Assembly: GCA_027485915.1 (NCBI GenBank)
Contig: JAIXQA010000069.1
Coordinates: 1 to 49,060 of the forward strand
Source of the DNA: Alphaproteobacteria bacterium
GTDB taxonomy: Bacteria > Pseudomonadota > Alphaproteobacteria > Caulobacterales > Aquidulcibacteraceae
Length of the DNA: 49,060 nucleotides
Direction: 5' to 3'
Positions 35,391 through 48,128 of this stretch are shown here, piece after piece (positions within the stretch are counted from its first letter, which is position 1; each line of letters opens with the position of its first letter). The notes below the pieces were generated by a model that was not told the origin of the DNA, did no database searches, and was given only the letters and a program-made list of their open reading frames with translations. The translations under genes and the position numbers were made by a program.

Positions 35391-36308
35391 TCATAGGAGC
35401 AAATCGCCCTGCTTTTTAGCGATGGTGTCGGCGTATAATTGGTCAAATTCAATGATGGCGTCGGAGATGGCGGTGCGTTCACCCGCGTCGCGACGGATGA
35501 AGTGGGCGGCGGGTGAGCCGTCGGCGGCTTTCACAATCGTCATGCTATATTCGGGCAATTCGTCGCGCAGGGCGATCTTGCGCATCATGCGGGCAAACTC
35601 TTTGGGTTCAGAGTCTGAGCCTGTCTTGTCCTTGAGAACTGAAAAGCGGCAGAGCCAGCCCTTCTTTTGATCGCCTGCGTGCTTGCGGGCGATCCGGTAG
35701 AGCGCGCGTTCCAGCCCACCGGTCAGGCTGAAATAGTCCGGGTGCATGGTCAGCAATTGCTTTTCCTGCGTCACCCCTTCGTAAATCCAGTTGGACAACG
35801 TGATGCGAAGTGCGCGCGGCTGTTCGGTGATGGGGTCGACTTCAATGTCCCACTCATCAATCCAGGAGAAGCGACGGTCCCTGCCCCGCTTGGCGCGGAG
35901 CGAGGTGAAAATGGTGGTCGAGGCCAAGCGGTCGAGCGCGGCGCGCAATTCCTGATAGCCCTTGCCGCCCGTATCGCGCTTAATCGCCCGTAACAGGTCA
36001 TAGGCGGTGGTGCGCAGCGTGCGCGGTAGATCATTGACGCCTTGTTGCTTCAGGCGATTGAGGGCGCTGGCCGCCCAGATCAAAATATCGGCATCCCAAA
36101 TGGTCGCCATGCCATAGGCGGGCACGGCTTCGACCTTGACCCAGACTTCGCCATCGGGGCTGCGGTAATCGATGGGCTTTAGGCGCTTGCGCTTTTGCAG
36201 CGAGAAGAAGGGCCGCTCCATCGTCTCCCGCTGATCTTTCAACGGGATATCGTGCACCATCGGGATGAAGAAGTCGAACTGAGGATCATCTTTGCGTCGC
36301 GCGGACAT
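35391..36308 (-). CDS. repA: Plasmid replication initiator RepA (RPA family)
   Basis: A 305-residue protein of the RPA (PF10134-type) initiator family found on alphaproteobacterial plasmids and secondary replicons. Family-typical segments are FFIPMVHDIPLKDQRETMERP at the start, WDADILIWAAS, RTTAYDLLRAIKRDTGGKGY (winged-helix region), ALDRLASTTIFTS, FSWIDEWDI, and FSLTGGLERALYRIARKHAG. It binds iterons and opens the origin. The gene is followed by an iteron-like site and lies in the same orientation as parA and its partner, 282 bp downstream of them. Upstream DNA contains a partial centromere-like block, suggesting cross-control of rep by the partition proteins. Confidence 0.92.
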   Translation of the reverse strand: MSARRKDDPQFDFFIPMVHDIPLKDQRETMERPFFSLQKRKRLKPIDYRSPDGEVWVKVEAVPAYGMATIWDADILIWAASALNRLKQQGVNDLPRTLRTTAYDLLRAIKRDTGGKGYQELRAALDRLASTTIFTSLRAKRGRDRRFSWIDEWDIEVDPITEQPRALRITLSNWIYEGVTQEKQLLTMHPDYFSLTGGLERALYRIARKHAGDQKKGWLCRFSVLKDKTGSDSEPKEFARMMRKIALRDELPEYSMTIVKAADGSPAAHFIRRDAGERTAISDAIIEFDQLYADTIAKKQGDLLL

Positions 36309-36590
36309 AGTTGTCTCTCTCTTTCGAACAACGCCCTGATCTCATGCGCGAGCGGGCAGAGGCTTATCCCCGGTGACGCACCAGAAGGTGCAAATTAGGC
36401 GTGTCCCGATTCTGGGCTTTGACCAAGCCAAGAGGAGCTTTTGGAGGGTCTTGGGCTGATCCTATCTGATTCTGCGGGCGTGCAAGGTCATTCAGGTCGG
36501 ATTCGGCACACAGGTGGAGTTGTCGACCTGTCTGCGTGTGGACGCGTCTTCAGGTCGCCACGTGGTCCTTACGCTAAGGAGCGTTCAGGA
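36309..36590. promoter_or_regulatory. repA upstream region with centromere-like motifs
   Basis: This 282-bp spacer holds the repA promoter. It includes TTGTCGACCTGT at 36520-36531, a 12-mer repeated exactly at 38073-38084 in the centromere-like array. It also has TGTGGACGCG after it, and two TCAGGTCG octamers (about 36492 and 36551). CAGGT and ACCTG form a small dyad around 36511-36530. The partition repressor could bind here and link copy number to segregation. A TTATCCCCG near 36364 is only a weak DnaA-box match. Confidence 0.5.
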
Positions 36591-36980
36591 CTAGCGCTCA
36601 CCCATTGGATGTTTGCCATAATGGCGCAGGACGAAATCAAGCCCCTCACCGACCAGATGCTGGACCGTGACATCGCGCTCTGCGGCCAAGATGCGCAGCG
36701 AGCGGGATAGTTCTGGGCTGAAATAGCCGGCCACCATCACCCGGCCGTCGCGTGCTTTGGCTTTCTGGGGCACGGGCATGGCAAAATTGGGTGGCGCAAA
36801 GACAGGCGCTGGGGCCATTGGCTCTGGGCTTGCCATTTGGGCCGGGGGCGCGGCGGCAAATTGAGGTTCTGCCACGGGCTGACTGTCCTGATTTGCCGGC
36901 GCCGTCATTTGGTACGGGCTTGTGTTGGGCTGTGCGGCTACAGCTGCGAGGCGCGCTGCGAGGCTTGGTGCTTTGGCCAT
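36591..36980 (-). CDS. Ribbon-helix-helix partition partner (ParB/ParG-like)
   Basis: A 129-residue protein. Residues 1-75 are low-complexity, rich in Ala, Pro and Gln (AAPPAQMASPEPMAPAPV), and probably disordered. Residues about 80-125 form a ribbon-helix-helix fold (GRVMVAGYFSPELSRSLRIL, then RDVTVQHLVGEGLDFVL). A flexible N-terminus plus RHH C-terminus is the design of ParG-type centromere-binding proteins, whose tail stimulates the ParA ATPase. The gene lies 33 bp downstream of parA with a GGGGAG site, so they are co-transcribed. It should bind the CCACATG array upstream of parA. Confidence 0.78.
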   Translation of the reverse strand: MAKAPSLAARLAAVAAQPNTSPYQMTAPANQDSQPVAEPQFAAAPPAQMASPEPMAPAPVFAPPNFAMPVPQKAKARDGRVMVAGYFSPELSRSLRILAAERDVTVQHLVGEGLDFVLRHYGKHPMGER

Positions 36981-37013
36981 GTATCTCCCCTTCCCTCTCT
37001 GTTGAATTGGTGG

Positions 37014-37661
37014 TTAGGCCGCTTGGGCGACGGTTTGGGTTTTGGTGAGGCGGCCCATCATCCATTCAAAGACGGCATCGACTTCGCTGGCAGCCTTACA
37101 GCCTGGTTCATACTCACTGGCGGTATGGCCATCGACCACGGCGTGGCGGAAGGCGGCCCGTTCTGTCAGGCAGACAGGGGCCAGCGGCATGCCAATGCCG
37201 CGTACAACGGCAGCCGCATCTTCGACCAAGCTCGCTGCCCGGGGTGGGACGGCATTGAAAATCGTATAGGCGGGCTTTTGAGCGATCCGCATCAACTCAC
37301 CGGTTGTCTTGATGGCATGAAGGTCAAAGGCGCTGACCCGGGTTGGTACCAAAACCAAGTCTGCGGCCCGCGCAGCAGAGACTGCTGCCGCATCCGCCGC
37401 TGGCGGGCTGTCGAGGATGCATAAATCCACACCCGCTTGGGCGGCTTCCTGCAACGTGGCCTCTAGTCTTGTGTAAGGCGTGGCGACGACGGCAGGATTA
37501 TCCCCGCCCCGCCAATCGCCCCATTGTGCGGCTGTCGCTTGAGGGTCGAGGTCGATCAAAGCCACCGACAGACCCTTGCGAGCGGCTGCTACGGCGAGGT
37601 GAACCGATAAAGTGGTCTTACCTGCCCCACCTTTTTGGCTGACTATGGCTACTACATGCAT
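37014..37661 (-). CDS. parA: ParA-type partition ATPase
   Basis: A 215-residue Walker ATPase of the small ParA (type Ib, ParF-like) class. It has deviant Walker A SQKGGAGKTT at residues 8-17, Walker A' VALIDLDPQATAAQWGDWR, Walker B CILDSPPA, and no N-terminal HTH. It moves plasmid DNA by ATP-dependent polymerisation or gradient formation with its RHH partner. The start is the ATG at 37661, with a strong GGAGG. The longer in-frame reading to 37757 crosses the centromere repeats and is not coding. In small-ParA systems the RHH partner, not ParA, represses the operon. Confidence 0.92.
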   Translation of the reverse strand: MHVVAIVSQKGGAGKTTLSVHLAVAAARKGLSVALIDLDPQATAAQWGDWRGGDNPAVVATPYTRLEATLQEAAQAGVDLCILDSPPAADAAAVSAARAADLVLVPTRVSAFDLHAIKTTGELMRIAQKPAYTIFNAVPPRAASLVEDAAAVVRGIGMPLAPVCLTERAAFRHAVVDGHTASEYEPGCKAASEVDAVFEWMMGRLTKTQTVAQAA

Positions 37662-37675
37662 CTTCCTACCTCCTC

Positions 37676-38235
37676 GTGTCCACATGCGGCCATGTGGTAA
37701 GTTCGGCGCGTCGTCATCCCGGTAACCCCACGTCTGGAGGCCCCTACATGTGGGCATTGGAGACAGGACGAGGTGTCGCCCTGTCGGCGGCTGGACTTGT
37801 TGAAAAGTCGCCGCCTCCCCGTGTCCACATGTTGAAACTGTAGACTTTAAACCTTAACGATTCCTTATCGGCACTCTGAGAATTCGCCTCTGAGACGAGT
37901 TGGGTGCCGGGATGAATGTCCGCCCGTCTTTTGGCCACAAGGGGCCTGCTCGTCGATTTCTGGGCTGACTAGAGGCAGGGGAGGGTGCCTAGTCCTTCAC
38001 TTGATCGTACGCGCGGGCCAAAACGCATGCCTCATGCTTTGGTCATGCATTTTTTGGCCGAAAGCAATCACATTGTCGACCTGTGGCCGTGTCCACACAT
38101 CCACGCATCGCCATGTCGGCGTGATGGTTTCTCCACATGCCCAACCTGCAAGACGTGGACATGTCGCAGGGTGGGCGGGTCGACATGTATCATATGTCGA
38201 GGCGTCCATGTGGCGACATGCTAGCCATGTGGACA
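37676..38235. repeat. Centromere-like array (parC/parS candidate)
   Basis: At least eight CCACATG/CATGTGG sites or close variants lie upstream of parA. CGTGTCCACATG occurs at 37675-37686 and again at 37819-37830, and CGTGTCCACA at 38088-38097. CCACATG-CGGC-CATGTGG (37680-37697) is a perfect dyad. Others are at 37747, 38133, 38152 (GACGTGGACATGTCGC), 38207 and 38225. A dyad CGACAT-N7-ATGTCG spans 38181-38199. Position before parA and irregular spacing fit a type Ib partition centromere bound by the RHH protein. Two sites near 37680 also overlap the parA promoter region. Confidence 0.7.
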
Positions 38236-38416: not shown

Positions 38417-41365
38417 TTAGCAGAAAGTGGGTTCAGAAGTCGATTTATACTTCTCGCAACTGGCAAAAAGCGCCAGCGCCATTGTCTGGGCATCGGCATG
38501 GCGCGCCAAGCCCCAGATGGGTCCTGCTTGGTCCCAATCAGGCTCGCCATGGCCCGCCCTACGCCAGATCCAAGCCACCGCATCATGGATGAGATCATCG
38601 AGAATGATGTCATGATCGACCCGATAGTCTGGATCCCGTTCATGACGGTTGGCGAGGACATTAAGCGCTTCTAGGCAGAAGGTTCGATAGGCGGGGTCGG
38701 GGATTGTCTCCAGACGCACCTCGATCTCCAGCGCGAAATCCTTTTCCCACGCGGTCAGGTCAGAGCGGGCGACTGCGGCATCCAGTCGATTGTTTGCGCC
38801 AAACACGATGCCCGGGCACACATGCAATAGCGACCAAAGCCGCGCGAAGAAGTCGCTGCCCACCCGGGTCAGAATACCCAGACGCTCTCGCCATTGTTGC
38901 CAATCGCTGCCAATCGCGAGGGCAGAAGGGGTCAAAGCAAAATTGGGGGCAGGGGAGACCACAGCACGTACCGACGGAGTTTCCAGCAATATGGACTTTA
39001 CCCGGTCAAACAAAACAGACGGGGGTTCTGCCACCAGATTTTCCATGCCGCCGGTTTCTTCCTGACCTAAGCGACCTACAATTTCGGTTAAGCGGATCGT
39101 GCGCATGCCACGCACAGCATTGGAGTCAGACTTGCTGAACAGTCCCAAGGCTTGCAGCACCTCTTGGGCTATTACCGCATGCAGTTTAGAATGCAGTCCA
39201 TCCTCAATCATCGTTACCAATTCGCCCTCAGAGATGGGTCGTGTGATGACTCGTCCTTCGCCAAGGCCTAAGCGGCGCAGACGCACAACAATATCTTTGG
39301 CGGAATCTTGCAGCCGTGGGTCCGTACGGTTTAACCACGCAGCACCGCGGCGGGCCGTGGCCCAGTCGCCCGCCCGTCCAGAAGCTTCATAGATGCGCTC
39401 GATCTCGGCTTGGTCACCTGAAGCAATGGCCTCATCCAGACTGCGCCCAAAGCCCTGGTCCAACGGCTCTGGTAAGCCCTGCCTAAAGTCCGAATAAGTC
39501 CCAGATGGCAAAAGAGAGCCAATCGATTTTGGCTTGGTCTGAGCGCGCAGCACTTCGTCAATAGACACAAGCTTCGTTCTGGCAAAATCGACCTGTCCAC
39601 GTTGTACTTCGTGCAAGAGGTCGATGAGGCGATCTATACCGCTGCCTTGCATAGCGGTCGCATCGACGCACAGAATAAAAACGGGATTGTCCAAGCCGCG
39701 CCAATGGCGGGCCACATAGCGAAGATCCCCCCGCAAACGACGCGCGCGCGCTGCGGCATCATAGCGGATATGGTGGTCATGGGCCTCAAGGAGTGTAGCC
39801 GAGAACAGAACATGACGGCCTTGCGCCTCATAAACATAAGCATTGGCCAACGGCCCAAGTCGCTTTTCGGGGCGACCGGTGAGCCGTAGATGCGCGTTGG
39901 TGCCAATCTGCGTCCAAACACTGACCAAATCCCCCGCCGGTCGGATCAACACGTCGGGACCCAACTCGGACATCTGGTCACAGATAAGCCCCAGGTCTTG
40001 AAGCCTAGCTGCGGTCTGCGCATCCTCTGCCACAATTGCAAAAGCAATTTCTTGTTGGTGCTTGCGGTTAAGATGATGGCGGCGACCAAGTGGGTCGATA
40101 TCGGCCGGGGAAAGTAACCCTTCTTGCAGCATTGCTCCCAGCGCCCACAAGGATTGTGCCCAAAGTAGCGGCAAATTGGCGTTGGCAACGCGATCTTGGC
40201 TGCCAGGTGCCGCAGCTTCCGCTTCAACGGCATGGGCCTCAACATAATAGAGCTCTGGCAAAAGCGGCAAGCCATCGCGGATTTGGAACAATGGCGCCAG
40301 TCGATCTGCCCAAGCCTCAGCCCCGCGTGTGTCGCCAGTCATCTCCGCATCTACAAGAAGATAAGTAAAGAAGAGTGGCCATTCTGACTCGATATTGGCG
40401 AATTTCGAGAGTTCACCGGCGTGATAATGAAGCCGATGTTCGTCTTCCACGGTCGTCTGATGCCCATCGCGCAGAAAGCGCTTGCAGCCGTATCGTCCGG
40501 CCAGCCGATCCAAGATCCGACCGCGCGTATGGGCGATCATCACTTTGTCGTCGACCGCAAAAGCAGGCCAGCCAACCACTGCCAACAAAGCGGCATCGGT
40601 TTCCTTAGATGCGGACTCACCGGGCAATAAGACTTGTAAGGTCTCGCGCGCCCGAGCAATGTCATCGGCTGGAACCCAAATGGGGCCGCGGGCCTCACAG
40701 CCAAAGTCCAATCCATCCATCGCCTCTAGCGCAGCTTTTGCGACACCGACTGAGCTCGCATTGATTTCGACAACGCCGTCATTGGATTTGCGGCCACGCT
40801 CCCAAATCCCGTAATCGGCAATGCGGTAAGCCGGCCCGATATAATGAACAAGATTCTGAACGAAATCGACTTCATCGGCGGTCTCAACCAGTTTGAGCCC
40901 GCCCGCAGTCATTTGCGCAAGGAACAAAAGAAAGAGAGACGTGGCATCAATTTGGAGATGCCCCCAATGGGCGTCACCCACCACGGGCTGGCCAGTGGCC
41001 GCATCATATTTGGCATGCAAACCATCAAGCGGGTCTTGCGTATATTTGAACCGCTCCACCTTATCGGCTTGGCCCATCATGGCCGACAAGAGGCCCCGCA
41101 TGAGGCGAATGACACTGGTTTCAAGTTGACGCGCCCGGTCAGAGCCCGGCTCCAACCGCTTATAGGCACAAGCAAGACCCCAAACGCCGAGGATTGAATA
41201 GACATTGTCGCGCACCCAAGCATGCGCATAATCTCCATGGACCGTTTTGGCGGTACTGGCAGGCAAAAGGCCTGCTTCGGCGCTCAAGCGCTTTAGAAAG
41301 ATCGCATCTATATGGTCATACCAATGAATGAGGCGCGCTTTCATGTCCGGGGCTTGGTCGTTCAT
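38417..41365 (-). CDS. Phosphorylase kinase alpha/beta-like protein (GH15-like fold)
   Basis: A 982-residue protein colinear with the alpha/beta subunits of eukaryotic phosphorylase kinase. Nearly identical blocks are WVRDNVYSILGVWGL (50-64), LMRGLL, WGHLQIDATS (134-143), YGIWERG (185-191), NASSVG (202-207), RYGCKRFLRDG (291-301), ESEWPLFFTY (326-335), LPLLPELY and IDPLGRR. The first 430 residues form an (alpha/alpha)6 glucoamylase-like barrel with the Glu of IWERG kept. The later part also aligns, including the far C-terminus (ETIPDPAYRTFCLEALNVL), but without the phosphorylated regulatory inserts. In animals these subunits regulate a kinase; bacteria have no known equivalent role, and no kinase gene is adjacent. 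It is last in an rpiR-glgB-glgX-malQ operon, so a role in glucan sensing or hydrolysis is likely. Confidence 0.88.
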   Translation of the reverse strand: MNDQAPDMKARLIHWYDHIDAIFLKRLSAEAGLLPASTAKTVHGDYAHAWVRDNVYSILGVWGLACAYKRLEPGSDRARQLETSVIRLMRGLLSAMMGQADKVERFKYTQDPLDGLHAKYDAATGQPVVGDAHWGHLQIDATSLFLLFLAQMTAGGLKLVETADEVDFVQNLVHYIGPAYRIADYGIWERGRKSNDGVVEINASSVGVAKAALEAMDGLDFGCEARGPIWVPADDIARARETLQVLLPGESASKETDAALLAVVGWPAFAVDDKVMIAHTRGRILDRLAGRYGCKRFLRDGHQTTVEDEHRLHYHAGELSKFANIESEWPLFFTYLLVDAEMTGDTRGAEAWADRLAPLFQIRDGLPLLPELYYVEAHAVEAEAAAPGSQDRVANANLPLLWAQSLWALGAMLQEGLLSPADIDPLGRRHHLNRKHQQEIAFAIVAEDAQTAARLQDLGLICDQMSELGPDVLIRPAGDLVSVWTQIGTNAHLRLTGRPEKRLGPLANAYVYEAQGRHVLFSATLLEAHDHHIRYDAAARARRLRGDLRYVARHWRGLDNPVFILCVDATAMQGSGIDRLIDLLHEVQRGQVDFARTKLVSIDEVLRAQTKPKSIGSLLPSGTYSDFRQGLPEPLDQGFGRSLDEAIASGDQAEIERIYEASGRAGDWATARRGAAWLNRTDPRLQDSAKDIVVRLRRLGLGEGRVITRPISEGELVTMIEDGLHSKLHAVIAQEVLQALGLFSKSDSNAVRGMRTIRLTEIVGRLGQEETGGMENLVAEPPSVLFDRVKSILLETPSVRAVVSPAPNFALTPSALAIGSDWQQWRERLGILTRVGSDFFARLWSLLHVCPGIVFGANNRLDAAVARSDLTAWEKDFALEIEVRLETIPDPAYRTFCLEALNVLANRHERDPDYRVDHDIILDDLIHDAVAWIWRRAGHGEPDWDQAGPIWGLARHADAQTMALALFASCEKYKSTSEPTFC

Positions 41366-41370
41366 GTCCG

Positions 41371-42894
41371 TTAGCGTCCGTATTGCTTCGCAAGGTCACG
41401 CAGCTTTTGCCGGGCCGCAGGGGTGAAGTCGCTCGCCTGAAAGCGCCAGTTCCAATTGTCTTCAATCGTACCCGGTGTATTCATCCGGCCATTGCCATCC
41501 AGGCCAAAGACATCTTGTAACGCAATAATGGCGAGATTGGAGCCAGATTGCATGGCCAATTCAATAAAGCGCCAGTGCAGGTCACTCCCGTCACCCCCAA
41601 GCAATTCTAACGCGGCGGCGGCTTCACGCGGGGCATCCTTTGCACGCTCTGCTGCTTCGCGACCGTCATTTTTAAACCAGCCAATTACCGTATTATTGTC
41701 GTGCGTGCTGGGATAGCAGACGGTTGCGGCGGGATAATGATAGGGGTGGCGGTTATCGCGCGGTGGGCCATCGCCAAATTCAAACTCTAGGATTTTAAGG
41801 CCGGGGAAGGCGAACTTGTCGCGCAAGGCGATGACGTCTTCGGTGATATGGCCAAGATCTTCCGCAATGACTTTGAGATCGGGCAGGGCAGTCGTGATTG
41901 CGGTGAACAAAGCGTCTCCGGGAACATCAACCCATTGGCCATTGATCGCCGTTGTTTCACCAGCCGGTGTCTCCCAGCACGAAGCAAAGCCACGGAAATG
42001 GTCGATCCGGACCGCATCGGCAAAGTCCAGCAAGCGGCGCATGCGGGCGACCCACCATGAAAAGCCATCTTCAGCCATTTTGTCCCATTCATAAATGGGA
42101 TTGCCCCACAGCTGACCTGTTGCGCTGAAATAGTCCGGGGGAACACCCGCCCCAACGCGGGTATTAAAGTCCTTGTCGAGTTTGAAGAGGTCCGGTCTTG
42201 CCCACACATCGGCTGAGTCATGGGCGACGAAGATCGCCATATCGCCAATAATCATGATCCCTTTCGACGCCGCATGCTGACGCAAGCGATGCCAGCGCAG
42301 ATCAAACAAAAATTGTAAGGCCTCAATTGCGGCAATATCGTCTGCCAAGGTCTCCCGGGCTTCGGCCAAAGCAATAGGGTCCCTGCGGCGCAAAGCGTCG
42401 GGCCAATGCATCCAGCCTTGGCGCTGACGCGAAACCGAAATAGCTTCAAACAAGGCATAATCATCCAGCCAAGCCGCACCATGTTTGGCCTTAAAGGCCG
42501 CAAGGCCTGCTGCAAGTGGATGATCGGCTTGGGCGGCAAGCCGACTGCCAGCTATGCGCAATACCGCGAGGCGGGCAGGGACTGTAACTTCGTAATCGAC
42601 CTTGACTTGCGGCAGAGCCTTCAAATGACCCACTTCGTCAGCGGTCAGCAAGTTCGCGTCAATCAAGCCGTCTATATCAATCAAAAGTGGATTGGCGGCA
42701 AAGGTTGTGGTGGCTGAATAAGGGCTGGCATTATTGCCGGTCGCATTGATGGGCAGGATTTGCCATAGCTTTTGGCCAGATTCCGCTAAGGCATCGATGA
42801 AGGCCATCGCCTCATCGCCAATCTCCCCAATACCATAGGGGCCGGGCAAGCTGGTGGGGTGAAGCAAAATGCCACTGATGCGATCAAAAGCCAT
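41371..42894 (-). CDS. malQ: 4-alpha-glucanotransferase (amylomaltase)
   Basis: A 507-residue GH77 enzyme that transfers alpha-1,4-glucan segments between maltodextrins, releasing glucose. Family motifs are GILLHPTSLPGPYGIGEIG at the N-terminus, SPYSATTTFAANPLLI, VRIDHFRGF (nucleophile Asp), EDLGHI (acid/base Glu) and THDNNTVIGWF. I chose the ATG at 42894 because it precedes the conserved start and has GGAAAG upstream. The GTG at 42927 lies inside glgX. The start overlaps the end of glgX by 11 bases, and the stop is five bases from the phosphorylase-kinase-like gene, so translation is coupled through the operon. Confidence 0.93.
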   Translation of the reverse strand: MAFDRISGILLHPTSLPGPYGIGEIGDEAMAFIDALAESGQKLWQILPINATGNNASPYSATTTFAANPLLIDIDGLIDANLLTADEVGHLKALPQVKVDYEVTVPARLAVLRIAGSRLAAQADHPLAAGLAAFKAKHGAAWLDDYALFEAISVSRQRQGWMHWPDALRRRDPIALAEARETLADDIAAIEALQFLFDLRWHRLRQHAASKGIMIIGDMAIFVAHDSADVWARPDLFKLDKDFNTRVGAGVPPDYFSATGQLWGNPIYEWDKMAEDGFSWWVARMRRLLDFADAVRIDHFRGFASCWETPAGETTAINGQWVDVPGDALFTAITTALPDLKVIAEDLGHITEDVIALRDKFAFPGLKILEFEFGDGPPRDNRHPYHYPAATVCYPSTHDNNTVIGWFKNDGREAAERAKDAPREAAAALELLGGDGSDLHWRFIELAMQSGSNLAIIALQDVFGLDGNGRMNTPGTIEDNWNWRFQASDFTPAARQKLRDLAKQYGR

Positions 42895-44983
42895 GTCCGG
42901 TCTTTCCAATTGTTCTTGAGGTGTCACGCGAAAACACGATTAGGGTTCGTGTAGGAAGCTGAATGGTCTGGCCGCCAGCGGCCACTTGGTCTTGAGTTGG
43001 GCGAATGGGGTCTGCGGTAGTCAGCGCCATGCGCCAGATGCCGGACCCGGTGGGCGGCAGGATAAAGGCCGCATCCTCGAGGCTTGCATTGATCAAGATC
43101 AGCCAGCCGCGTGGTTCATAGACGGCGGCAAAGCACTGGGTCCTGTCGTCCATCCAATCGCTGTGGGTCATCAGATTGCCCCAAACACTCCACCACGCAA
43201 TGGTAGGTTCCCGTTCGCCTGGGCCATTAGGATGACCGTCTGGAAAGCTCGCAAACATCTCTTTGCGTAAGGCGATCAATTGTTTGGTAAAGGCTAAACG
43301 CTGGGCACCAAGGCGTGTGTTTGGTAAACGCCAATCCAGCCAGCTGATTTCATTATCCTGGGCATAGGCATTATTATTGCCACCTTGGGTACGGCCCATT
43401 TCATCGCCTGCCAACAGCATGGGCGTGCCGAAGCTTAGAAAGACACTGGCCAGCATATTCCGCGCTTGGCGCTCGCGCAGCTCTTCAATCACGCGGTCGG
43501 TTGTTTCGCCTTCCACCCCATAATTGGCCGAGAAATCATGATCTCCACCGTCGCGATTATTCTCCCCATTGGCATGGTTGTGCTTTTGGGAATAACGCGT
43601 GAGGTCCAACAGCGGGAAGCCATCATGGCACGCGATGAAATTGATACTGGCCTCAACTGGCTTGCCTTTATGGCGAAACAAGTCCGGCGTGCCGGCTAAA
43701 GCCTTGGCAAAGTCGCGCGCTTTATCCTTGTCGCCGCGCCAGAATTGCCGGATGGAATCGCGCGCTTTGCCGTTCCAATCGGCCCAGTCTGGCGGGAAAT
43801 CGCCGACATAATAGCCCCCGGCCGCATCCCATGCTTCGGCAATGAGTTTGACATGCTTTAGCCGCGGGTCGCCCCGGACTGCATCAAAGAAGGGGGCCTG
43901 CCGGCTGAAATGGCCTGCCTCATCCATGCCCAGAGAAGGCGCAATGTCAAAGCGGAAGCCGTCGAGACCATAGCATTGTGTCCAATGGGCCAAGGATTCC
44001 ACGATCAGGTTTCGCACGTGGGGATGGGCAGCATTCAAAGTCGCGCCACAGCCACTGATATCGGCGTAGCGGCTCAAGTCGTGTGGGTTCAGGCGGTAAT
44101 AGGACGCATTGTCGATCCCCCGATAAGACAAAGTCGGTCCATGTCGATTACCCTCACACGTGTGGTTATAGACGACATCCATCCAGACATCGAAATTGCG
44201 GGCATGGGCGTTTTGGACAAAAGCCCGCATCTCTGCGATGGGCTCACCCATGGCATAGTCGCTATGCGGGACGAAATAATTGAGCGTGTTATAGCCCCAA
44301 TAATTCTTCAGGCCCTGATCGACCAAGAAGCGGTCGTGGATGAAATGATGAATAGGCAGAAGCTCAAGCGTCGTAATCCCAAGTGCAGACAGGTAATCGA
44401 GTGCAGCTTGGCTGCCGAGGCCTGCGAAGGTCCCACGCTCCCTCTCAGACAGGCCTGGCAGCTGCATGGTAAAGCCCTTCGCATGCAGCTCATAAATTAG
44501 GGTTTCGCGCCACGGCTTGCCCTGATGGCGGGGCAGGGGGGCAAGGGCGGCGGGATCGACGACAACCCCTTTAAGGCAGGTCGCGCTGTTGTCGCGGTGA
44601 TCGGCCATCCCATCGGGGTCATGGCTTTCGTAGAAATAGCCAAAATGCTCTGGCCCCCAGCGAAATGCACCGGCGACCGCTTTCGCATAGGGGTCCAGCA
44701 AGACTTTATGCGGGTTAAAGAGATGTCCTTGGTCTGGCCGATAGGGCCCATGGACACGGTAGCCATAAATGGCGCCAGCCCCCAGCTTGGGGGCAAAGCC
44801 ATGCCAGATGTCGCCTTTGCGGGCTGGCAAATCGGCGCGCGCAATCTCTTGGCGACCATCGCTGGAAAACAAAACGAGCTCAACCCGGACGCCATGGGCA
44901 CTGAACAGCGCAAAATTGACGCCACCCTCACCGAGCGTCGCCCCCAATTGATTTGGGTTGCCTGGTTCCAATCGCAGCAGCAT
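42884..44983 (-). CDS. glgX: Glycogen debranching enzyme GlgX (isoamylase type)
   Basis: A 699-residue GH13 enzyme cleaving alpha-1,6 branches of limit dextrins. The N-terminal CBM48 domain is at residues about 1-110 (GATLGEGGVNFALFS, YGYRVHGPY, LLDPYAKA). The barrel carries VYNHTCEGN, DGFRFDIAPSLG (nucleophile Asp), IAEAWD (acid/base Glu) and FIACHDGFPL (transition-state Asp). The RTQGGNNNAYAQDNEISWLDW block is typical of GlgX/TreX. An AGGA site precedes the ATG at 44983. It lies 14 bp after glgB. Together with GlgB and MalQ it remodels stored glycogen. Confidence 0.95.
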   Translation of the reverse strand: MLLRLEPGNPNQLGATLGEGGVNFALFSAHGVRVELVLFSSDGRQEIARADLPARKGDIWHGFAPKLGAGAIYGYRVHGPYRPDQGHLFNPHKVLLDPYAKAVAGAFRWGPEHFGYFYESHDPDGMADHRDNSATCLKGVVVDPAALAPLPRHQGKPWRETLIYELHAKGFTMQLPGLSERERGTFAGLGSQAALDYLSALGITTLELLPIHHFIHDRFLVDQGLKNYWGYNTLNYFVPHSDYAMGEPIAEMRAFVQNAHARNFDVWMDVVYNHTCEGNRHGPTLSYRGIDNASYYRLNPHDLSRYADISGCGATLNAAHPHVRNLIVESLAHWTQCYGLDGFRFDIAPSLGMDEAGHFSRQAPFFDAVRGDPRLKHVKLIAEAWDAAGGYYVGDFPPDWADWNGKARDSIRQFWRGDKDKARDFAKALAGTPDLFRHKGKPVEASINFIACHDGFPLLDLTRYSQKHNHANGENNRDGGDHDFSANYGVEGETTDRVIEELRERQARNMLASVFLSFGTPMLLAGDEMGRTQGGNNNAYAQDNEISWLDWRLPNTRLGAQRLAFTKQLIALRKEMFASFPDGHPNGPGEREPTIAWWSVWGNLMTHSDWMDDRTQCFAAVYEPRGWLILINASLEDAAFILPPTGSGIWRMALTTADPIRPTQDQVAAGGQTIQLPTRTLIVFSRDTSRTIGKTGHGF

Positions 44984-44997
44984 TCAGATCCTGTTTC

Positions 44998-47259
44998 CTA
45001 TGCCGGAACGAGATAAAGGCCTGCAAGCGGTGGCAGGGTCAGAACAATCGAAGCGGGCTGGCCATTAAAGGGCATGGCTTCGGCTTCCACCAAAATGGGG
45101 CCTTCGAAATTAGACCCATCATAGGCCGATGAGTCTGTGTTCAGGATCACTTTCCAAGCCCCACCATGGGGCACCCCTACCCGATACTCGACGCGTGGAA
45201 CCGGGGTCATATTGATCAAGGCGAGCACTTTTTCCGAACGGTCGTGGTTCCAACGCAAGAAGGCAAACACCGAGACGTCCGCTGCATCGGCCTGAACCCA
45301 TTCAAAGCCGGAGGGATCACAATCGCGTTGATGCAAGGCAGGGGTCTCGCGATAGAGCTTGTTCAGATCCCGCACCAGAGACTGAACCCCCTTATGGCTA
45401 GGCTGGTCGAGCAAATGCCAATCGAGACTGCCTTCATGGTTCCATTCAGCGACTTGGCCAAATTCGGCCCCCATGAACAACAATTTTTTGCCGGGATGGG
45501 CCCACATTAGGGCGTAATAGGCGCGCAAGTTTGCATAGCGTTGCCAATCATCGCCCGGCATACGCGAAAAGATCGAGCCTTTCCCATGGACGACTTCATC
45601 ATGACTGAGCGCGAGCATGAAGTTCTCGGACCACGCATAGGCGAGGCCAAAGGTGATCTCGCCATGGTGCCACGCGCGGTGGATCGGGTCGCGGCTCATA
45701 TATTGCAGCGTGTCATGCATCCAGCCGAGGTTCCATTTGAACCCAAAGCCCAGCCCACCGTCATAAGTGGGTTTACAAACGCCAGCCCAAGCGGTGGATT
45801 CTTCGGCCACCATCATGATCCCATCGGCCTCGCCATAGCACATCTCATTCAAGCGGCGCATGAATTGGACGGCTTCAAGATTGATATTGCCGCCATAGAT
45901 ATTGGGGATCCATTCCCCATCTGCGCGGGAATAATCGAGATAGAGCATGGAGCTGACAGCATCGACGCGCAGGCCATCAATCTTGAAGCGGTCGAGCCAA
46001 AATAGGGCTGAAGATACCAGAAAGTTGACGACTTCGGGCTTGGTGAAGTCGTAAATATTGGTCTTCCAATCGGGGTGGAAGCCAAGCCGGGGGTCTGCAT
46101 GTTCATAAAGAGCCGTGCCGTCAAACCGGTTTAAGCCATGGCCATCAATTGGGAAGTGGGCAGGCACGAAATCACACAAGACACCAATTTCAGCTTCATG
46201 CAGACGGGCCACCAAGGCGCGAAATTCATCAGGCGTGCCATAGCGGCTGGTGGTGGCGAACAGGCCAACCGGTTGATAGCCCCAAGAGCCGTCAAATGGA
46301 TATTCCGTCAACGGCATGAATTGCACATGGGTAAAGCCCATGTCGCGCACATAGGGGATCAGCCAGTCACCAAGCTCGGCATAGGTCAGAGGGCGGTTAC
46401 CCTCTTCGGGCTTGCGGCGGAAAGAGCCTGCATGCACTTCATAGACGGAAATGGGCGCGTCCAAGCCATGTCGGCTGTGGCGTGTCTTGAGCCACGCTTG
46501 GTCGCTTTGGATTTGCTTTGGCGGGTCCACCAAACGGCTGGCATTGGCGGGGCGAAGCTCTGCTGCCTGCCCAAATGGGTCTGACTTAAGTGGCTGCAAA
46601 TCCCCGTTGGCACCGATGATCTCGTATTTATAGATGTCGTTCGCCGAAAGACCCGGGATAAAAATTTCCCAGATGCCTGCATCATGCAGCTTACGCATGA
46701 TGTGGCGACGCCCATCCCAATTATTGAAAGGGCCCACCACAGAAACCCGTTGGGCGGCGGGGGCCCAAACTGCAAAAGCAAAGCCTTCGACTTGGTCTAA
46801 CGTAATCGGTCGGGCACCCAAGCATTCCCAAGCACGCCACAACTGGCCTTGCCGGAAGCGCAAGATTTCCTTCGTGCTCAAAATGCCTGCAAACCGGTAG
46901 GGGTCTTCGAGACGGACTTCTTCGCCGTCCCAAGTCGCCAGATAATGATAGTTTAGAGACTGTTTGGATTTAGCAATTTTGGCGATAAACAGACCATCAG
47001 GATGCAGCTTAGTCATTGGGATTGACAGCTTCTGCTGTGGGACAACCAAGGTCACCAGCTCTGCGGCAGGTAGGAAGCAGCGCACCATGATGACATCGGC
47101 TTCGTCATCGGGATGAGGGCCCAAGAAAGCAAATGGGTTGGCGTGGGTACCGTTCACTAAAGCCAGAATTTCGCTTTGGTCTGCAAGGGCAGGACCTAAG
47201 TGGGCGGAGCCATTTAAAGCGGCCTTCGCCGGCTTTGCCCGGGTCGTCTTGGTGGCCAT
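44998..47259 (-). CDS. glgB: 1,4-alpha-glucan branching enzyme
   Basis: A 753-residue GH13 branching enzyme that forms alpha-1,6 links in glycogen. It has the full-length architecture: an N1 domain (residues about 25-130, NPFAFLGPHPDD), CBM48 (about 155-250, FAVWAPAAQRVSVVGPFNNWDG), a barrel with VHAGSF, nucleophile Asp433 (GLRVDAVSSMLYLDY), Glu486 (MVAEEST) and ALSHDEVVHGKGS, then the C-terminal beta domain. The first 20 residues are an Ala/Lys-rich extension. The start codon overlaps the rpiR stop by one base (TAATG), so regulator and enzyme are made from one transcript. Confidence 0.96.
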   Translation of the reverse strand: MATKTTRAKPAKAALNGSAHLGPALADQSEILALVNGTHANPFAFLGPHPDDEADVIMVRCFLPAAELVTLVVPQQKLSIPMTKLHPDGLFIAKIAKSKQSLNYHYLATWDGEEVRLEDPYRFAGILSTKEILRFRQGQLWRAWECLGARPITLDQVEGFAFAVWAPAAQRVSVVGPFNNWDGRRHIMRKLHDAGIWEIFIPGLSANDIYKYEIIGANGDLQPLKSDPFGQAAELRPANASRLVDPPKQIQSDQAWLKTRHSRHGLDAPISVYEVHAGSFRRKPEEGNRPLTYAELGDWLIPYVRDMGFTHVQFMPLTEYPFDGSWGYQPVGLFATTSRYGTPDEFRALVARLHEAEIGVLCDFVPAHFPIDGHGLNRFDGTALYEHADPRLGFHPDWKTNIYDFTKPEVVNFLVSSALFWLDRFKIDGLRVDAVSSMLYLDYSRADGEWIPNIYGGNINLEAVQFMRRLNEMCYGEADGIMMVAEESTAWAGVCKPTYDGGLGFGFKWNLGWMHDTLQYMSRDPIHRAWHHGEITFGLAYAWSENFMLALSHDEVVHGKGSIFSRMPGDDWQRYANLRAYYALMWAHPGKKLLFMGAEFGQVAEWNHEGSLDWHLLDQPSHKGVQSLVRDLNKLYRETPALHQRDCDPSGFEWVQADAADVSVFAFLRWNHDRSEKVLALINMTPVPRVEYRVGVPHGGAWKVILNTDSSAYDGSNFEGPILVEAEAMPFNGQPASIVLTLPPLAGLYLVPA

Positions 47260-48128
47260 TAGCGCGCTTCCTCGTAAAAAGTCCGATCATCCTTGATTGC
47301 CTTTTGCGCACTTTGCCGATCGCGTCGACGCGCGTCGGCGTAGGCATTTTCGCGTTGCGACTGCAGCATTTCAGAATCGGCTTGCGAAAAGTGTCCGCCC
47401 TTGGACAAGCGGGCTTCGATCCCAAGTCTTAAGGCTTCAATCAAAGCAGCATAGGCAATGTAGTCGGTCAGGCCCGCCTCAAACTGACCCAGCGACAGCG
47501 TGGCCGCCAAACCTGCGTGGCCAACTAAGGCAACCCGTCCGCCTTGTGCGCAGATATCCTCTAAACTCTTCCCAACCTCAGGGATGCGCACGCTCGACTT
47601 CAGAGCGATGACCAAGATGCTATCGCGTCGCCCGCTGATCTCCGCGGTGGTTTGATCACAGGCTTCCAGCCCGCAGTTGCGCAGGGCACCAACCAGAGTA
47701 TCGGCAAACAGAGTTTCTGCGCCACTGTGCAGCACAATGATTCGTCCGCTTCCCGCACAAATCTCCAAAAGTGTATCAATTTCGTCCAGCGCGAGTCCCG
47801 CACCCGTTTGGCTCAACGTCTTGGTCACCTGTTCATACAAAGCCTGGCCGAGACCGCTATGACCCTTCACATGCGGGTTCTGGCGGCTCATCGATAGGGT
47901 GCGGCGCTCTAGATCGCGCGCAAGACTGAGCTTGAAATCCATAAAGCCCATACAGCCGATGGCCTTACAAAAGCGCATGATTGTGGGTTCTGACACATCG
48001 GCGCGTTCGGCCAGATCGGCGATCGACATTTCAACAACGACCGTCGGGCGACCCAATACAAAGCGGGCAACCCGCTGCTCAGACGGACGCAAATCAGCGA
48101 GATGTGAATCGATCTGACTGATGATCAT
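47259..48128 (-). CDS. RpiR/HexR-family transcriptional regulator with SIS domain
   Basis: A 289-residue regulator. An N-terminal HTH_6 domain (residues 1-77, with LAERADVSEPTIMRFCKAIGC) is followed by a sugar-isomerase (SIS) effector domain at about 120-250 (IIVLHSGAETLFAD, ILVIALKSSVRIPEVG). Family members such as HexR sense phosphorylated sugars or 2-keto-3-deoxy-6-phosphogluconate. It heads the glgB-glgX-malQ operon. A HexR-like palindrome lies 93 bp upstream of its start, in the spacer shared with a divergent sugar ABC ATPase gene. It is likely autoregulated and controls both sides. Confidence 0.9.
   Translation of the reverse strand: MIISQIDSHLADLRPSEQRVARFVLGRPTVVVEMSIADLAERADVSEPTIMRFCKAIGCMGFMDFKLSLARDLERRTLSMSRQNPHVKGHSGLGQALYEQVTKTLSQTGAGLALDEIDTLLEICAGSGRIIVLHSGAETLFADTLVGALRNCGLEACDQTTAEISGRRDSILVIALKSSVRIPEVGKSLEDICAQGGRVALVGHAGLAATLSLGQFEAGLTDYIAYAALIEALRLGIEARLSKGGHFSQADSEMLQSQRENAYADARRRDRQSAQKAIKDDRTFYEEAR

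Follow-up and report, generated by a model that had tools for sequence, protein, structure and literature searches.

The protein encoded by the 982-codon gene described here is, as judged by alignment along its whole length, an end-to-end homologue of the alpha and beta regulatory subunits of phosphorylase kinase (PhK), and it is probably a cytoplasmic exo-acting alpha-glucan hydrolase that works with GlgX and MalQ. Given that its catalytic residues are kept and that a search of the genome for phosphorylase gave no match, a working glucan-cutting enzyme is the likely function of this PhK-like protein. The gene lies in an alpha-glucan operon of a freshwater alphaproteobacterium of the family Aquidulcibacteraceae, in the window, i.e., the whole 49,060-nucleotide stretch that was analysed (contig JAIXQA010000069.1 of assembly GCA_027485915.1, positions 1 to 49,060).

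Homology to phosphorylase kinase alpha and beta

The gene and the domains of its product were located as follows.

38417..41365, minus strand: PhK alpha/beta-like protein, 982 aa, ATG start (ORF list, Pfam, phmmer)
40046..41365, minus strand: GH15 glucoamylase-like domain, approximately residues 1-440 (PF00723 matched residues 28-433 at 191.3 bits)
39536..40045, minus strand: PhK domain D2 region, residues 441-610 (boundary approximate; aligned to PHKA and PHKB)
38558..38911, minus strand: KPBB_C (PF19292), PhK C-terminal domain, residues 819-936 (105.9 bits versus a cut-off of 27)

In phmmer searches of solved structures, the PhK-like protein matched human alpha (PHKA) with E=2.4e-156 and beta (PHKB) with E=1.4e-133. 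The GH15-like domain, D2 and the C-terminal block occurred in identical order in human muscle PhK alpha (8JFK chain M), with 36.0% identity over 870 aligned residues and 43.9% over 569 residues in the alignment of an N-terminal fragment; residues 31-606 paired with alpha 30-608 and residues 723-906 with alpha 953-1136. The match to PhK beta (8JFK chain B) was also full-length (32.0% over 890 aligned residues), with residues 654-929 paired with beta 765-1031. The original prediction of a full-length PhK alpha/beta homologue, with similarity continuing past residue 450 or so, was thus borne out by alignments and a KPBB_C match that ran to residue 936.

All of the motifs quoted in support of that prediction were located in the ORF, namely WVRDNVYSILxVWGL (WVRDNVYSILGVWGL, which starts at residue 50), WGHLQxDATS (WGHLQIDATS from 134), GIWERG (from 186), NASSVG (from 202), RYGCxRFLRDG (RYGCKRFLRDG from 291) and EWPLFxTY (EWPLFFTY from 328). 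The C-terminal block described as ExVLxxxPxPxYRxxxxEAxxVL-like was present as EVRLETIPDPAYRTFCLEALNVL but fitted the pattern loosely. The long insert ahead of the last block of PhK alpha, presumably the site of animal phosphorylation, was missing from the PhK-like protein, as predicted, since the columns of residues 777-834 contained 58 residues in this protein as opposed to 121 in the alpha fragment (40 in the beta fragment). The N-terminus (MNDQAPDMKARLIHWYDHI) appeared by eye to be without an obvious signal sequence. An AlphaFold2 model based on 7 close sequences was unusable (pLDDT 41).

The protein shares with GH15 glucoamylases (PF00723) the GH15 domain, at 191 bits, and the catalytic residues; unlike these enzymes, it has an extra C-terminal half of 540 residues. 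Glucoamylases of known structure were matched neither by phmmer (E<=1) nor by the family profile (E<=0.01). Identification as an ordinary glucoamylase was rejected, because the match continued through KPBB_C and because PHKA and PHKB were the sole solved-structure chains matched at E<=0.01, whether by phmmer with the PhK-like protein or by the family profile. A bacterial gene beside the E. coli ETT2 cluster, pkgA, is described as phosphorylase kinase- or glucoamylase-like in two papers (PMC3977695, PMC2808357), one of which lists it at 1059 bp, approximately one third as long as the present gene, and discusses it as a putative secreted effector. In a plasmid search the one record returned, from E. 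coli, was a weak match (26.7% across residues 38-333), and a viral scan for relatives returned 30 stretches that fitted a pattern, 0 of which were confirmed.

Operon, genome and relatives

Four genes precede that of the PhK-like protein.

41371..42927, minus strand: malQ, 4-alpha-glucanotransferase (GH77); true start maybe further in (ORF list, profiles)
42884..44983, minus strand: glgX, glycogen debranching enzyme (TIGR02100, 811.4 bits versus a cut-off of 640.9)
44998..47259, minus strand: glgB, 1,4-alpha-glucan branching enzyme (ORF list, profiles)
47259..48128, minus strand: RpiR-family regulator (best NCBIfam models RpiR-glucokinase and HexR, both under cut-off)

The order rpiR-glgB-glgX-malQ-PhK-like gene, with five bases between the last two, was correctly predicted. 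As in the E. coli glgBXCAP operon, glgB adjoins glgX, whereas malQ and the PhK-like gene stand in place of glgC, glgA and glgP, and no glgC-, glgA- or glgP-like ORFs were found in the window. Scans for promoters (2 sites versus 6.3 in shuffles) and terminators (14 versus 12.4) are reported without any claim. In the genome from which the window comes, estimated to be 99.96% complete, the search for glycogen phosphorylase (glgP) gave 0 matches (12 of 14 controls positive), and there was no match for GT5 glycogen synthase (glgA) or for a second GH15 besides the PhK-like gene. The genome contained one PF19292 gene, and so is without separate alpha and beta paralogues. Thus, unlike PhK alpha, the PhK-like protein is single-copy and encoded in a glucan operon of a genome in which no phosphorylase was found. 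The single Ser/Thr-kinase-like gene found encodes a Pkinase-USP fusion and lies on another contig.

Carriers of PhK-like genes were sparse rather than common, at 8 of 398 genomes of the phylum and 3 of 385 of the class. These counts exclude G973 (a 58-position match at 19.3 bits, under the cut-off); the cyanobacterial sample was the Synechococcus elongatus control alone, which was positive. The association with glgB, glgX and malQ recurred in distant genomes of the phylum, in support of this part of the "glycogen operon" first proposed; the word glycogen is loose given the lack of a GT5 match. Glucan-enzyme neighbours were seen in 16 of 22 carrier genomes. By genus, the PhK-like gene adjoined malQ, glgB, glgX or maltodextrinase genes, or was fused to one of them, in 8 of 13, and no glucan gene was recognised nearby in the other 5. 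One gene (L033) was fused to malQ, and another (L032) adjoined genes for a cyclomaltodextrinase-type GH13 and a GH97. In G842, the genes upstream were those for glucose-6-phosphate dehydrogenase, one further ORF and then glucokinase, an arrangement that fits release of free glucose, for which glucokinase is needed.

The GH15 family comprises several specificities. An active GH15-type enzyme directed at, e.g., alpha-1,6 links, trehalose-like sugars or imported oligosaccharides instead of starch or glycogen would agree with the lack of a GT5 glycogen synthase match in the window's genome; the starch and glycogen enzymes that adjoin the gene in 8 of 13 genera argue against such a specificity, which we regard as very unlikely. 

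In favour of a glucan hydrolase, the operon also occurs in A. paucihalophilus (L006), which uses starch and maltose (PMC5712168), and the CAZy table of that paper gives one GH15 and none of GT3, GT5 or GT35. As a point against, the same table gives, for the type strain, 8 GH13, 1 GH97, 1 GH63 and 1 GH133, which are other possible glucan cutters.

A role as regulator or partner of glycogen phosphorylase, i.e., as part of a bacterial PhK-like control module, was also proposed in the original prediction. In its favour, glgP was present in 8 of 22 carriers, including all four whose genes were nearest to PHKA and PHKB in the tree described below (G398, G406, G1010 and G1029). On the other hand, glgP was present in 0 of 11 carriers of the window's family and had no match in carriers G217, G245 and G842. 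As anticipated for the operon itself, BLAST and phmmer (with one sequence as the kinase query) found neither glgP-like nor Ser/Thr-kinase-like ORFs in 22 neighbourhood stretches, including the window, which together comprise 294 ORFs. The only kinase match of the window's genome was a Pkinase-USP fusion on a separate contig. With glgP not found in that genome, the partner role was rejected for the window, and in general appears highly improbable.

Predicted active site and function

The codons of the predicted active site are listed below.

41207..41212, minus strand: R52-D53, predicted GH15 substrate-binding pair (invariant in 15/15 bacterial rows)
40964..40966, minus strand: W134, predicted active-site tryptophan (invariant in 15/15 bacterial rows)
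40799..40801, minus strand: E189 (GIWERG), predicted general acid, in the column of human alpha Glu185 (alignment)
40253..40255, minus strand: E371 (LLPELY), predicted general base, in the column of human alpha Glu371 (alignment)

We take R52-D53 to be the substrate-binding pair of GH15 and W134 its active-site tryptophan, and assume an acid role for E189 and a base role for E371. Alignment indicated the presence of two catalytic glutamates and subsite residues, and the comparison of the GH15 glutamate pair, for which the L033 fusion was aligned with its MalQ portion removed, placed E189 and E371, as in PhK alpha, in the two catalytic columns. All five residues were invariant in the 15 full-length bacterial rows, a set without near-identical L002, L003, L005, L006 and L007 and without two short forms, and were also kept in these 5 genus rows and in both short forms. 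Across the 15 rows, 137 of 440 positions were invariant in the GH15 domain versus 27 of 542 in the remainder. PHKA retained equivalents of all five residues, whereas PHKB has lost three (R52 to Q, W134 to Y and E371 to K) and retained D53. The human catalytic numbering, Glu185 and Glu371, is that given in PMC10978961.

According to the same paper, glucoamylase activity was not detectable in the human alpha-gamma-delta subcomplex or holoenzyme; since PHKA has both glutamates, conserved residues are no proof of catalysis. An intact but apparently inactive site, together with the PhK alpha/beta domain order, the proximity to malQ and the one fusion with it, would suit a non-catalytic glucan-sensing scaffold. 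Its GH15 domain would bind the ends of chains, and GlgX, MalQ and GlgB would be organised or regulated by the protein in the way that PhK is organised by human alpha and beta. Such a scaffold seems unlikely, however, from the invariance of the active-site residues beside a weakly conserved other half and from the nearby glucokinase gene of G842. Among the three options first offered, a real glucan hydrolase fits best; a phosphorylase partner is not supported.

As a hydrolase, the PhK-like protein would act on maltodextrin or branched glucan reshaped by MalQ and GlgB, with branches taken off by GlgX. Through the inverting two-glutamate mechanism of GH15, with E189 as acid and E371 as base, it would release glucose one unit at a time from the ends of chains, and the free glucose would pass to glucokinase. 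The D2-to-KPBB_C half may hold an oligomer together or hold the polymer. We infer catalysis, substrate, cytoplasmic location and the role of the C-terminal half from the comparisons given above. The protein would in this way replace the glycogen phosphorylase that was not found in the genome, though the 8 of 22 carriers with glgP indicate that it is not everywhere a simple replacement, and glgP is scarce in the window's family anyway (4 of 49 non-carriers).

Origin of the phosphorylase kinase regulatory subunits

PHKA and PHKB paired together with support of 100/100 among single-copy bacterial genes, in a tree that had no outgroup, took its only eukaryotic rows, two in number, from solved structures and omitted four near-identical rows. 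This pairing suggests that the single-copy bacterial genes resemble the pre-duplication form, in agreement with the idea that they could serve as a model of how the regulatory subunits arose. Two ordinary GH15 proteins of G245, used as root, had branch lengths of approximately 10 and did not group together. This tree (full-length bacterial rows cut to 625 residues, four near-identical rows omitted) was too saturated to place the two ordinary GH15 rows, but in sequence searches no GH15 glucoamylase structure was matched.

The PhK-like protein may resemble the enzyme from which the animal regulator was made. More tentatively, and with somewhat less than even confidence, we suggest that PhK alpha and beta arose from a single-copy bacterial-type alpha-glucan hydrolase, which first trimmed polymer in operons with malQ, glgX, glgB and glucokinase, where it could replace phosphorylase, and which was then duplicated in eukaryotes to become the glucan-sensing control arm of phosphorylase, beta losing the active site and alpha keeping it. 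Why PhK alpha retains an intact-looking glucoamylase site while showing no detectable activity "still requires further investigation" (PMC10978961). Full-length bacterial relatives with the site kept, some of them from genomes that gave no phosphorylase match, make this question testable, and the simple bacterial version allows one to ask what the whole protein did prior to becoming a regulator. For the bacteria themselves, these relatives point to a hydrolytic, phosphorylase-free breakdown of internal alpha-glucan in freshwater species that live with algae and cyanobacteria.

PhK-like gene and its relation to PHKA and PHKB

The gene is a single open frame:

38417-41365, minus strand: PhK-like ORF of 982 residues

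In a search of solved-structure sequences, its product matched the alpha and beta subunits of phosphorylase kinase (PhK) from 8JFK, described in passages of PMC10978961 as the human muscle PhK holoenzyme, with E=2.4e-156 for PHKA (chain M) and E=1.4e-133 for PHKB (chain B). The sole further match to E=1, an arsenate reductase (E=0.094), was at chance level. Pfam placed GH15 at residues 28-433 (191.3 bits) and the phosphorylase b kinase C-terminal domain, KPBB_C, at residues 819-936 (105.9 bits; cut-off 27), while no NCBIfam model matched to E=0.01. Membership in the PhK family is thus visible at database level, since the KPBB_C model recognises the protein. A profile built from 11 bacterial relatives matched PHKA (5.3e-272) and PHKB (1.2e-232) and no other solved structure at E<=0.01. 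Together, these matches indicate from sequence that the homology spans the whole protein and is to the PhK alpha/beta family in particular; the original prediction of full-length homology was therefore borne out, and a generic GH15 fold alone was ruled out. Identity in a combined alignment, where the PHKA and PHKB rows are pieces output by searches rather than whole chains, was 36.0% between the window protein and PHKA (870 aligned residues), 32.0% between the window protein and PHKB (890) and 38.7% between PHKA and PHKB (878).

An unrooted tree (20 rows, 1018 columns) included one eukaryotic alpha and one eukaryotic beta sequence; ordinary GH15 proteins were too distant an outgroup for rooting, and PHKB formed a long branch. 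PHKA and PHKB paired with each other (support 100/100), and the pair grouped with genes of the sampled genomes G398, G406, G1010 and G1029 (96/95). The window gene grouped with those of Aquidulcibacter paucihalophilus and Phycosocius (100/100), with a weak link to G014 and G016 (79/77). Trees constrained to unite PHKA and PHKB with the window's genus (p-AU 1e-7), or to put PHKA but not PHKB into the G398 group (p-AU 5e-5), were rejected, and one joining both to G842 was borderline (p-AU 0.05), the tests being weakened by the choice of groups after inspection of the tree. The pairing of PHKA with PHKB and these constraint tests suggest that alpha and beta probably arose by a duplication later than the divergence from the sampled bacterial genes.

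No description of bacterial full-length PhK alpha/beta homologues was found in titles, abstract starts and passages of the open-licence full-text literature (including PMC10008586, PMC9200736 and PMC6282683); Pallen 2003, cited in both E. coli papers (PMC3977695 and PMC2808357), may mention further bacterial relatives. Passages of these two papers note a glucoamylase-like gene beside the ETT2 secretion cluster, at its end, and in PMC3977695 it is called pkgA, for phosphorylase kinase and glucoamylase, so that a bacterial relative of lesser length has already been published. An E. coli record, NZ_CP134663.1, gave a weak match at 3789952-3790920 (26.7% over residues 38-333).

Operon and gene neighbourhoods

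The minus-strand order is RpiR-family regulator, glgB, glgX, malQ and PhK-like gene; adjoining genes overlap or lie 5 or 14 bases apart. For the regulator, the top NCBIfam models (RpiR-glucokinase and HexR) were both under cut-off. These five genes were common to all six related loci (L002 to L007, from G001-G004, G006 and G007), L006 being the operon of the type strain A. paucihalophilus TH1-2. The loci are those of six named relatives, 78-91% identical, from Aquidulcibacter (three; Caulobacterales), Candidatus Phycosocius, Maricaulis and Hyphomonadaceae. Replication initiator protein A (RPA) is encoded, along with a ParA-type ATPase, just downstream of the operon at 35391-37757. All six related loci show this order after the operon, with RPA 93-100% identical (the contig end truncates L003), which suggests a link between the operon and a repA-parA secondary replicon.

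Of the 22 genomes carrying the PhK-like gene, 16, from 8 of the 13 genera, had glucan-gene neighbours.

Gene arrangements around PhK-like genes in sampled genomes
Window's genus (seven carriers) and G016: glgB-glgX-malQ-PhK
G014: glgX-malQ-PhK, at contig end
G015 (L033:2-3613): 1203-residue fusion of MalQ (GH77) and a shortened PhK-like part (GH15 and KPBB_C)
G013 (L032:1864-8009): 662-residue short form, KPBB_C close after GH15, adjoining a cyclomaltodextrinase-type GH13 and GH97
G608, G696: malQ divergent to the PhK-like gene
G201, G217: PhK-glgB-glgX
G842: glucose-6-phosphate dehydrogenase, 238-residue ORF, glucokinase, PhK, glgB, aldo/keto reductase, glgX, malQ

The first three genes in G842 lie directly upstream of the PhK-like gene (L076:2885-6183). 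In G398, G406, G426, G245, G1010 and G1029, no glucan neighbour was recognised in the stretch read (BLAST against window and E. coli glucan genes; Pfam for some ORFs); the G1029 gene begins 223 bases from the contig start.

Phosphorylase and synthase in carrier genomes

The window genome (99.96% complete, 82 contigs) contained one KPBB_C gene and one GH15 gene, the PhK-like gene itself (PF00723; controls positive 9/14). Searches of this genome gave no match to glycogen phosphorylase (PF00343) or GT5 glycogen synthase (PF08323), each with 12/14 controls positive. The one Ser/Thr-kinase-like gene (PF00069; controls positive 11/14), on contig 50, is a Pkinase-USP fusion adjoining metallophosphatase and chorismate synthase genes. 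These searches agree with the CAZy table for TH1-2 in PMC5712168 (GH15 1, GH77 1, GH13 8, GH97 1, GT4 10; GT3, GT5 and GT35 none), where starch and maltose are given as used substrates. A glycogen synthase of GT4 type may be present. The predicted glycogen operon stood as to gene order with glgB, glgX and malQ but, because neither GT5 synthase nor phosphorylase was found in the genome, is better named an alpha-glucan operon.

PF19292 (KPBB_C) carriers numbered 11/60 in the family, 3/385 in the class and 8/398 in the phylum sample, and 7/295 (one under cut-off) in the order of G398; these samples overlap, and pooled carriers over cut-off came to 22 genomes of 13 genera. Phosphorylase was present in 8 (G201, G398, G406, G426, G608, G696, G1010 and G1029) and without match in 14, among them 11/11 of the window's family, the absence being weaker for G014 (87% complete) and G016 (63%). 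Since glgP was present in only 4 of 49 family-sample genomes without the PhK-like gene, scarcity of glgP is also characteristic of the family. In two members of the window's genus, G005 and G008, neither the PhK-like gene nor any GH15, glgP or GT5 was matched, so the trait was gained or lost within the genus. The Synechococcus elongatus control genome (a cyanobacterium) had KPBB_C over cut-off together with phosphorylase and GT5 synthase.

Active site and favoured role

Of positions 1-440, 137 were invariant in an alignment of 15 full-length bacterial rows, versus 27 of the remaining 542, a pattern of constraint that reads as that of an enzyme for the bacterial GH15 domain. The invariant set included R52, D53, W134, E189 and E371, which the two short forms and another five rows from the genus likewise kept; R52, D53 and W134 presumably have GH15 active-site roles. 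PHKA retained all five residues and 118/135 of the invariant GH15-domain positions, whereas PHKB carried Q, Y and K at positions 52, 134 and 371 and kept 95/136. No account of this contrast, the operon or the missing phosphorylase was found in the open-licence full text available. E189 and E371 align to the columns of human alpha Glu185 and Glu371, named in passages of PMC10978961 as the two catalytic Glu. Because no glucoamylase activity was seen there for human alpha with the same residues, such activity of the window protein can only be inferred.

The favoured role of the PhK-like protein is that of a putative exo-acting alpha-glucan hydrolase. MalQ and GlgB would act on maltodextrin to give chains that are longer or branched, GlgX would take off branches, and the PhK-like protein would free glucose destined for glucokinase.
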